A stretch of 44,564 bases of DNA from Caldilineaceae bacterium SB0661_bin_34 (lineage in GTDB: Bacteria > Chloroflexota > Anaerolineae > Caldilineales > Caldilineaceae): the NCBI GenBank assembly GCA_009841145.1, contig VXMJ01000101.1, forward strand, positions 1 to 44,564. Reading direction: 5' to 3'. The position numbers and the translations under genes are program-made. The number at the start of each line of letters is the position of its first letter. The stretch's first letter is position 1. The notes below the pieces were generated by a model. The model saw only the letters and a program-made list of their open reading frames with translations, had not been told where the DNA came from and made no database searches. Positions 15,772 through 18,859 of this stretch are shown here, piece after piece.

Positions 15772-15802
15772 GGACCCCGAACCGAGCTACGGTTCGGGGT
15801 CC
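15772..15802 (-). terminator. Hairpin just after the seleno-DsbA gene
   Basis: The 12-base arms GGACCCCGAACC (15772-15783) and GGTTCGGGGTCC (15791-15802) are perfect complements around a 7-base loop. They start five bases after the stop codon of the DsbA-like gene on the minus strand. There is no U-tract. The placement right at the end of the extended frame supports this being the true 3' end of that gene. Confidence 0.6.
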
Positions 15803-15807
15803 GGATA

Positions 15808-16701
15808 TCAGTTCATGGCTTCCGCGATGGCGCGCTCGAACGCGTCATACGGCAACCCGCCCTGATAGACACTGTCATTGATCAGGAAGGCGGGCCGGCG
15901 CCGTATGTTCAGTTCGTTGGTCCGGTAGTCGTGCTGGGCCCTGATCTTGTCCAAGACGGCAGGATCCGCCATGCAACTGCCGAAGGCGTCCGTGTCCAGC
16001 CCCAAGCCCTCGGCGTATCCGACATAGGTGTCAACATTGGCACTGAACAAACTGCTGATGTTCTCGAACAGATGGTTGTGCATGGTCCAGAAACTGTACG
16101 GGTCCTGCTGACCGGCACACTCGGTCGCCGCCGAGGCCCGTTCGCTGGCCCCGCCGTGGTCCAACACGTGGTTGAAGCGCAGGTTCACGGTTCCGGCAGC
16201 CACATAGTTCTCAATCAGAAGGGGTTCCACTCGCAACACGTGCGAGGCGCACGCTCCTCACAGGAAATCCCCAGCATCCAATATGGACACCTCCGCCTCC
16301 GGGTTGCCCAAGACGTAGTAGCCCCCGTCCACAAAGACATGCGTGGTCCAGTCCGGAGGGTCCTCCACCACGGCCTCGTCCGGTTCCGGGTCCGACACAG
16401 GTTCAGGTTCGGCCTCCGCAACTTCCGTAGACTCTGCCGGTTCCGCATCCTCCGCCGAAGCTTCCTCGGTTGCCGGTTCGCGGCTGGCGGTGTCTGCTTC
16501 CTCCGGCTCCGCGGCGGCTGCCTCCGGAACCGCGGTGTCATCCTCGGAATCGACCATGGGCGCGGATCCGGGCCCACAGCCAACCGCAATCAGCGCTGCG
16601 CACAGCACGACTGCCAACAGGAAGGTGAACTTCGCGTGCCTGACCGAGGCTTTTGTGCCAGGTTTTCCGCTGGCCTGCCGTTCAGGAAGGAAATCGTCCA
16701 C
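15808..16701 (-). CDS. Probable selenocysteine-containing DsbA-like lipoprotein (in-frame UGA = Sec148)
   Basis: One frame runs from GTG 16701 (preceded by GGGAG at 8-base spacing) to the stop at 15808, with a single TGA at 16260-16258. The product would have 297 residues: an N-terminal hydrophobic export segment (FTFLLAVVLCAALIAVGC), a long Glu/Ala/Pro-rich linker, then a DsbA-like thioredoxin fold. Around the TGA the reading is DFL-U-GACASH. The neighbouring gene has DFHCPYCGRH and DFQCPYCQGH at this site, so the TGA falls exactly on the first catalytic Cys, with Cys151 as the partner. Downstream sequence remains conserved, including the cis-Pro loop (RRRPAFLI). A SECIS-like hairpin follows. 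The alternative is a nonsense mutation, since Cys TGC to TGA is one base. Confidence 0.75.
16230..16260 (-). promoter_or_regulatory. Candidate bacterial SECIS element with Sec UGA codon
   Basis: After the UGA (16260-16258) come 11 bases, then the 6-bp stem CTCGCA / TGCGAG (16246-16241 and 16235-16230) around the loop CGTGT (16240-16236). The loop begins 18 bases after the UGA and has a G in its second position. This fits the published bacterial SECIS description: an apical loop about 16-37 nt from UGA with a G in its first two bases. A competing 5-bp hairpin, GTGCG/CGCAC, overlaps it. The stem is inside the coding region, as in bacteria. Confidence 0.6.
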
Positions 16702-16767
16702 TTGAATTGCTCCCAATTGAAAATGTCCAGTGAGATTCTAAGGGCCGTGCTTAGCCGCTGAAATTCA

Positions 16768-18441
16768 TCATCCCGCTGCTTCGAGGGCGGCCAGCTGGGC
16801 GAAAATCTGCTCGAATACCGACTGGAACTGTTCAACCGGCAGCGCACCCACGATGGGCTGGACCAACAAACCGTAATCCCGATGCCAGATCACAAACGTG
16901 GGCGTGCCGCGCACAACCCCCTGTACCTGGGCCATGAACATGTCGATGAGCTCCATGCTGGTGGTGGTGCGGCACTCCTGGTAGGCCTCCTCGTCAAAGG
17001 CTGCCGGTGGAGATAGCGGCAGCACGGCCAAGTCGTCGAGCAGGGCGTGTCCCGCCTCGACCTCGGGCGGCAATGATGCCAGGTGCCAGTCGGCCGCCTC
17101 GGTCTGCGACAGGATGGCACCGAAGTTGTCCAGCGCCTCGTCCACGCCCCGATGGCTCCAGGCGGCGGGGTCCTCAAACAGCAGGTGGTGCAGATCCCAG
17201 AAGCGACCTTGAACTCCGGCGCACATGGTGGCGATAGCCGCAGTGCCGGACCATTGGGAACTGTCCAGCAGGAAGTGCTTGTAAATCCACATGATCTGGC
17301 CCGTGTCGACCCAGGCCACATCGAGTCCTTCCTGCACTGTTGCCGTGTGTCCTTGGCAATAGGGACACTGGAAGTCGCTGAATTCAAAGACGACAACCTC
17401 GGCCAGCGGTGAGCCCTTGAAGAAGTCCCCTGCCTGCGTCAAGCCGTGCCAGGCGCCGGTCGATGCACCTTCGGCATCCACATGGCCCCACAAAAACAGG
17501 GGCGTCAAGCCCTGTGCCGACAGCCAAAATGGTAGCGAGTCGGGGGTGTCGGCCTCTTTCGGATCGGCACCGGTGCCCTCGACTATGTACTGTTCGGCAT
17601 TGAACACGGCGTCCGCGAACCGCTCGTAGGGTTGCGCGCCCCGCAGGACCATGTACTGTTCCGGATCTCCCCGCAGATGAATGGTAAAGGTGGGGGTGCC
17701 TTGGATACCCATGTCAAGGGCATTGCCAATCGACTCGTCAATGCGCTGGTCCACATCGTTGGTGACATCGAGGAGACAGGACGAAAATGCCCCCAGGTCC
17801 ACCGTTGCGTCCGTGTCGGGCTGTTCGTTGTACCCGGCAGCCAGAGCCTCGAAGAAGGGAATGGGATCCCCGTTGCGGGCATGCTGCGACTGAGTGGAAT
17901 ACAGAGCTTCGTGCATCCACCAAAACGCCTCCATGTGTTGCAGTCCCATGCACCAGGCGGCCCGGTGGGCCAGCCGTGCCTGAGGATGAATGCTTTCGAG
18001 GGGCAGGTCCTTCACCACGTACTGGATCAGGCCGGTTTCAATCAGTTCCGTCCGAATCCTGGGCAACGTCTCGTTGGCGTGACGCCCACAGTACGGACAA
18101 TGGAAGTCCGAATACTCGGTCACCACCACCGACGCGTCGGGCGAGCCCATGTACGGCCAGCCGTCGTCTGTTAAACCCACCTGCACCGTCGCATGATCGG
18201 CTTCCGCCGATGCCTCATCAGCCACCGGCTCCGGGACGGCATCCGCCGGACTCTCGGTCGCAGGCGCTGATTCCACCTGCTGGAAGGCCGCCGCCAGTTC
18301 CTCTTCGATGACGGCCGTCACCGCCGGATCGGCCGTGCAACCGGCCAGGAGGACCAGACACGCGAGTCCGAACCAACGGACCCGATGGAACAGTGCGGCA
18401 GCGGGATGGATGCGGAACATTCTCGGAAGGGCTGGCGGCAT
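16768..18441 (-). CDS. Lipoprotein with two tandem DsbA-like thioredoxin domains
   Basis: The protein has about 557 residues from ATG 18441 (or 550 from ATG 18420); the open frame extends further upstream but without coding character. A signal peptide ends in lipobox LAGC (Cys35) and is followed by an acidic linker. Domain 1 has CPYC at 115-118 and a GTPTF cis-Pro loop near 248-252. Domain 2 has CPYC at 359-362 and a second GTPTF near the C-terminus. Both active sites look complete, so it should be a membrane-anchored disulfide oxidoreductase or isomerase outside the cytoplasm. It ends 67 bp upstream of the seleno-DsbA start and is in the same orientation, so the two probably form one operon. 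Confidence 0.88.
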   Translation of the reverse strand: MPPALPRMFRIHPAAALFHRVRWFGLACLVLLAGCTADPAVTAVIEEELAAAFQQVESAPATESPADAVPEPVADEASAEADHATVQVGLTDDGWPYMGSPDASVVVTEYSDFHCPYCGRHANETLPRIRTELIETGLIQYVVKDLPLESIHPQARLAHRAAWCMGLQHMEAFWWMHEALYSTQSQHARNGDPIPFFEALAAGYNEQPDTDATVDLGAFSSCLLDVTNDVDQRIDESIGNALDMGIQGTPTFTIHLRGDPEQYMVLRGAQPYERFADAVFNAEQYIVEGTGADPKEADTPDSLPFWLSAQGLTPLFLWGHVDAEGASTGAWHGLTQAGDFFKGSPLAEVVVFEFSDFQCPYCQGHTATVQEGLDVAWVDTGQIMWIYKHFLLDSSQWSGTAAIATMCAGVQGRFWDLHHLLFEDPAAWSHRGVDEALDNFGAILSQTEAADWHLASLPPEVEAGHALLDDLAVLPLSPPAAFDEEAYQECRTTTSMELIDMFMAQVQGVVRGTPTFVIWHRDYGLLVQPIVGALPVEQFQSVFEQIFAQLAALEAAG

Positions 18442-18528
18442 GGGACCGCCTCGAGCAGACGTGGGACCGGGCGGGCAGTCGATGTGATCGGATAGTCGGT
18501 GTACGGACTGCCGTGGATGATGGTAGTC

Positions 18529-18553
18529 GAAACCGGCCGCATGGGCCGGTTTC
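18529..18553 (-). terminator. Hairpin after the small conserved gene
   Basis: The 10-base arms GAAACCGGCC (18529-18538) and GGCCGGTTTC (18544-18553) pair perfectly around a 5-base loop. They begin three bases downstream of the stop at 18557 on the minus strand. There is no long U-run. It separates the small gene from the DsbA unit. Confidence 0.55.
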
Positions 18554-18556
18554 CGA

Positions 18557-18859
18557 TTACATCTGAAATGAACCTTCGTCCAGAACAACCACCTTGTAGG
18601 TGTAGTTGTCCACGAAGGTGGACAACTGCTTCTCCAGTTTGCGCCACGCTTCACTGTCCAGGATGGAACTAAGCTCATCCCGATCCTGAATCGTGCAGCC
18701 CATCAGGATTTGACGGCAGTCTCCGCACAGCGTGTACCAGAAATCACTCGGTTCCAAACCAAGCTTCTTGATCGCAGGTAGGAAGTTCCGAAGTATGAAC
18801 TCCTCGTACGGCCGCTCGCGACCGGACTGGATATCCCAGGACATCAGGAACTTGAACAC
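18557..18859 (-). CDS. Small conserved protein, possible alpha/beta-barrel (ABM-like), unknown function
   Basis: The protein has about 100 residues from GTG 18859 (VFKFLMSWDIQSGRE); ATG 18844 is an alternative. The frame is open further upstream, but that part is Arg-rich and reads as non-coding. The pattern of a short first strand, a helix with PYEEFILRNFLPAIKKLGL, then WYTLCGDC, ILMGCTIQDRDEL, and a final helix-strand resembles dimeric alpha/beta-barrel proteins of the antibiotic-biosynthesis-monooxygenase type. I believe similar small proteins occur in Chloroflexota, but I cannot name a family. It is divergent from the exported-protein gene at 19017. Confidence 0.65.
   Translation of the reverse strand: MFKFLMSWDIQSGRERPYEEFILRNFLPAIKKLGLEPSDFWYTLCGDCRQILMGCTIQDRDELSSILDSEAWRKLEKQLSTFVDNYTYKVVVLDEGSFQM

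Follow-up and report, generated by a model that had tools for sequence, protein, structure and literature searches.

A predicted DsbA/DsbG-like selenoprotein of the Rcas_1661 family in a Caldilineaceae genome

Does a DsbA-like gene that standard open reading frame (ORF) calling cuts in two at a TGA codon represent a broken gene, or a single gene in which UGA is read as selenocysteine (Sec)? The question is raised by contig VXMJ01000101.1 of Caldilineaceae bacterium SB0661_bin_34, of which a stretch of 44,564 nucleotides (hereafter the window) was analysed, and for which a preliminary description had proposed a selenoprotein. Several independent lines of evidence, including the conservation of TGA or Cys at the codon, a covarying bSECIS hairpin and the presence of the machinery genes, all favour that reading and indicate that the two ORFs are one selenoprotein gene. 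The product is almost certainly a DsbA/DsbG-like thiol-disulfide oxidoreductase with a Sec-x-x-Cys site, exported, probably anchored in the membrane, and made by SelB-dependent UGA read-through.

An in-frame TGA at the catalytic site of a DsbA-like gene

The frame contains a single internal TGA (16260-16258), as the preliminary description had stated, and is closed by a second TGA at 15810-15808 (Table 1). Listing of ORFs under translation table 11 broke the gene into 16258-16716 and 15808-16239. The earlier expectation that automatic annotation would split the gene thus holds for a listing of this kind, but a pipeline using the NCBIfam model NF041057 could recognise the gene. The internal TGA lies in the context DFL-U-GAC, aligned with DFHCPYC (18108) and DFQCPYC (17376) in the adjacent paralogue. 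We also found that the UGA residue aligns with the first CxxC Cys of Bacillus subtilis BdbD (PDB 3eu3), the best solved relative (E 2.1e-13), and of other solved DsbA proteins, in agreement with the position first assigned to it. BdbD has the same domain and an aligned active site, differing in its CxxC from the UxxC of the window protein. Beyond the TGA the frame stays open through DsbA sequence that includes the cis-Pro region (RRRPAF, at about 15903), again as described. The hairpin reported immediately after the stop is also present, with 13 perfect pairs; it was not among the terminators listed by a terminator scan, and of the three genus relatives two retain its 5′ arm whereas one has lost it.

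Matches of the window protein above the Pfam cut-offs were Thioredoxin_4 (61.2 bits) and DSBA (27.6 bits). An AlphaFold2 model built on a four-sequence alignment had a mean pLDDT of 37 and was not used, so the fold assignment rests on sequence families. Of the earlier label of DsbA-like lipoprotein, the first part is upheld by these domain matches; the second draws partly on homologues, which carry standard lipoboxes (e.g. LMTAC, LAAC), the lipobox of the window protein (AVGC) being weak.

Table 1. Coordinates of the predicted selenoprotein gene and associated features in the window.
Feature	Coordinates	Strand	Basis
Predicted Sec-containing DsbA/DsbG-like (thioredoxin-fold) exported protein, Rcas_1661 family	15808..16701	-	Read through 16258-16260
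UGA read as selenocysteine (predicted), first residue of UxxC site U-G-A-C	16258..16260	-	TGA/Cys alignment and BdbD
bSECIS hairpin CUCGCA-CGUGU-UGCGAG (predicted)	16230..16246	-	Loop 17 nt after UGA; stem -7.9 kcal/mol
Putative signal segment (hydrophobic) with a weak lipobox, AVGC	16576..16632	-	Sequence by eye
Upstream partner, two-domain DsbA-like lipoprotein (LLAGC), sites DFHCPYC and DFQCPYC	16768..18441	-	Thioredoxin_4, motifs
Perfect 13-bp hairpin directly 3′ of the stop, no T run	15772..15802	-	13 perfect pairs

Conservation of the TGA and of the sequence beyond it

A scan of genome contigs found only three other members of the genus, all of them MAGs named Caldilineaceae or Caldilineales, which we take from their isolate names to be of sponge origin. 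Read through, the window protein shares 85-90% identity with its counterparts in these three genomes, each of which has one TGA; every one of the four genus genomes, including that of the window, has TGA as the catalytic codon. Among 52 family members taken as best matches from match lists across the phylum, a non-exhaustive sample, the same codon is TGA in 38 and Cys (TGC or TGT) in 14. Random stops elsewhere in the frames of relatives, which the preliminary description had named as evidence against a selenoprotein, were absent from the matched stretches. Recurrence of TGA at one codon in 4/4 genus genomes and 38/52 family members is far beyond chance. After the TGA, dN/dS was 0.15-0.19 in all six pairs of the four genus members, a sign of purifying selection, which argues that translation continues in frame past the stop.

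These results bear directly on two alternatives. A dead or misread DsbA gene, split by a nonsense mutation or by an assembly error, would be broken at the TGA by table-11 ORF calling just as this gene is. Such an origin is extremely unlikely, however, given that the other three genomes of the genus and 38 of the 52 members share this TGA with no further stops in the matched stretches, and given the purifying selection after it and the covariation of the hairpin described below; the conservation of the TGA across separately assembled genomes refutes it. Genome-wide reassignment of UGA, for example to Trp, would likewise be compatible with one in-frame TGA within a conserved frame. Against this, UGA occurs both at the internal site and at the end of the gene in the window and in the genus orthologues, so the Sec reading must be local; moreover, the aligned residue in relatives is Cys and not Trp, and the genome holds a complete Sec machinery, leaving reassignment with a vanishingly small probability.

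On the tree of the family, seven Sec/Cys changes were needed, at least six of them forced by well-supported branches, and the family thus toggles repeatedly between Sec and Cys within one phylum. The gene selA is still present in 7 of the 14 genomes with a Cys form, which suggests that Cys also works in the role. Two sister loci, L073 (genome G286) with TGC and L074 (G255) with TGA, are nearly identical at the site and have the same hairpin; L073 probably arose by a recent replacement of Sec by Cys, and its genome has kept selA.

A covarying bSECIS hairpin and the selenocysteine machinery

In the published bSECIS model, a loop of 3-9 nt with G in its first two positions tops a stem of 4-16 bp, at 16-37 nt from the UGA and with a minimum free energy of at most -7.5 kcal/mol (PMC13188914). 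The window hairpin lies within every limit, having a 5-nt loop (CGUGU, G second, then U) on 6 bp, 17 nt from the UGA, at -7.9 kcal/mol. Minimum-energy folding of the 61 nt after the UGA did not choose this hairpin and gave a stability no better than that of shuffled sequences; comparative evidence took its place. The place of the hairpin is fixed in the 33 main-clade Sec genes, with stem arms at nt 15-20 and 26-31 (numbering from the U of UGA) and a loop that is almost always CGUGY. Across their 29 distinct sequences, 96% of cells were paired (63% in shuffles), 57 were double-changed (15 in shuffles) and the covariation score was 0.824 (0.203 shuffled; 0/500 shuffles), a signal that was destroyed by sliding the stem partner. 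Every one of the 33 main-clade Sec genes has codons at U+5 and U+9 that are exact reverse complements of each other, through ten different pairs (TCG/CGA, ACG/CGT, GCG/CGC, TTG/CAA, GGA/TCC, CTC/GAG, CGT/ACG, GCC/GGC, TTC/GAA and CGC/GCG); here the structure of the RNA clearly sets the identity of two residues in the protein. The bSECIS whose presence had been a point to check is accordingly in place, and it covaries.

The loop also accounts for the main feature in favour of a third alternative, that of two proteins, in which a short secreted linker protein would end at the TGA and a second one would start downstream of it, at GTG 16239. This GTG, seven codons past the TGA, is kept in most Sec members, but its conservation is explained by the loop sequence CGUG; a protein made from the downstream part alone would have neither the first thioredoxin strands nor the catalytic site nor an export signal, and the Cys homologues are continuous. 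We regard two separate products as very unlikely.

Consistent with a single selenoprotein gene whose hairpin serves Sec insertion, the hairpin is broken in 13 of the 14 Cys homologues, the exception being L073. In a covariance-model search, the window hairpin was the best match in its genome (E 1.6e-9, the next being 0.58); as the model had been trained on a set that included the window sequence, this E value shows uniqueness and not independent detection, and no second convincing bSECIS of the main type was found in the genome by this model. Several Cys homologues (L054, L056, L057, L059 and L061-L065) keep the three central stem pairs and have lost the loop and the loop-closing pairs, a pattern that resembles the vestige of an earlier bSECIS. 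A distant second clade (L028, L030, L031, L032 and L037) has UPYC or UPFC sites without the main hairpin. Four of its five members carry, 34 nt after the UGA, the sequence CGCTTC-NNNNN-GAAGCG, whose loop at 40 nt lies slightly outside the usual limit of 16-37 nt; in L037 the first-match search stopped elsewhere.

All four components that the preliminary description had suggested looking for are present in the genome of the window: tRNA-Sec (67.5 bits; anticodon TCA by ARAGORN), selA (478.5 bits), selB (above cut-off) and selD (313.9 bits; G000:C40:42966-43913, L047). The selD gene has a single in-frame TGA, and SelD of this genome is itself probably a selenoprotein, as is common in bacteria. 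For comparisons among genomes selA was chosen as the cleaner marker because the Rfam tRNA-Sec model also matched other tRNAs in controls. Matches to selA above cut-off were found in 37 of 38 genomes with the Sec form and 7 of 14 with the Cys form (Fisher p = 0.00018, a value that ignores kinship and overstates independence, since four of the seven selA-lacking Cys genomes belong to one genus). The single exception among the Sec genomes is G025 (86% complete), in which tRNA-Sec gave a match above cut-off.

Family membership, gene neighbourhood and proposed function

The window protein matched NF041057, "Rcas_1661 family thioredoxin-like (seleno)lipoprotein", with 213.6 bits over residues 32-294, above the curated cut-off of 190, and has in common with this family a UxxC site and the use of Sec or Cys as its first residue; a lipoprotein-type N-terminus is a further putative likeness. 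It differs in its long acidic Ala/Glu/Pro-rich linker and, in Caldilineaceae, in that its gene follows that of a two-domain CxxC paralogue. NF041057 appears in a 2026 review of prokaryotic selenoproteins as a 'DsbG-like protein, UxxC' and is rated there as a high-confidence prediction (PMC13188914); reports of DsbA-like and DsbG-like selenoproteins go back to 2006-2008 (PMC1794560; PMC2398784). Among the latter, the GOS survey described DsbA 1 and DsbG-like selenoproteins, marine metagenome families likened here to the window protein by description, which share its DsbA/COG1651-type thioredoxin fold and UxxC site (PMC2398784). The window gene is thus a well-supported new member of a known family, the family itself not being new. 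Neither Rcas_1661 nor the selenoproteins of sponge Caldilineaceae were the subject of any paper found in our literature search.

Immediately upstream, on the same strand and separated by 66 bases, lies the two-domain paralogue, whose start at 18441 was chosen within the ORF 16768-18678. It matched Thioredoxin_4 in two stretches (125.2 bits) and, as a Cys protein, NF041057 with 199.7 bits, also over two stretches. This neighbour is found beside the gene in most Caldilineaceae genomes that have the gene, in other genera too (e.g. G004, G007, G009, G014, G015, G020, G021, G023, G025, G032 and G034).

From family membership we infer function and substrate type, and the likeliest role is that of an extracytoplasmic thiol-disulfide oxidoreductase acting with the upstream partner. 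SelB carrying Sec-tRNA(Sec) would bind the hairpin 17 nt after the UGA, Sec being inserted there in place of termination, and the final UGA, which has no such hairpin, would terminate normally. Outside the membrane, the Sec selenolate would attack a substrate disulfide (or form a mixed bond), and the Cys three residues further on would resolve the mixed bond; its probable partner in this is the two-domain CxxC protein of the adjacent upstream gene. A more speculative proposal, to which we give distinctly less than even weight, is that the Caldilineaceae pair of a two-CxxC-domain lipoprotein followed by a UxxC lipoprotein may form a dedicated extracytoplasmic disulfide relay, with the selenoprotein as a fast terminal or recycling step. 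We found no description of such a CxxC/UxxC extracytoplasmic relay in our literature search.

None of the neighbouring genes, whether for VWA, Tubulin_2 or transglutaminase-domain proteins or for the two-domain partner, names a substrate. A transglutaminase-domain protein is encoded on the other side in both the window and G020. In several Caldilineaceae genera the DsbA pair is followed by an exported VWA-domain protein and a Tubulin_2 protein (L084:301-6827, with equivalents in L085-L088 and L092), which are absent beside the pair in the window.
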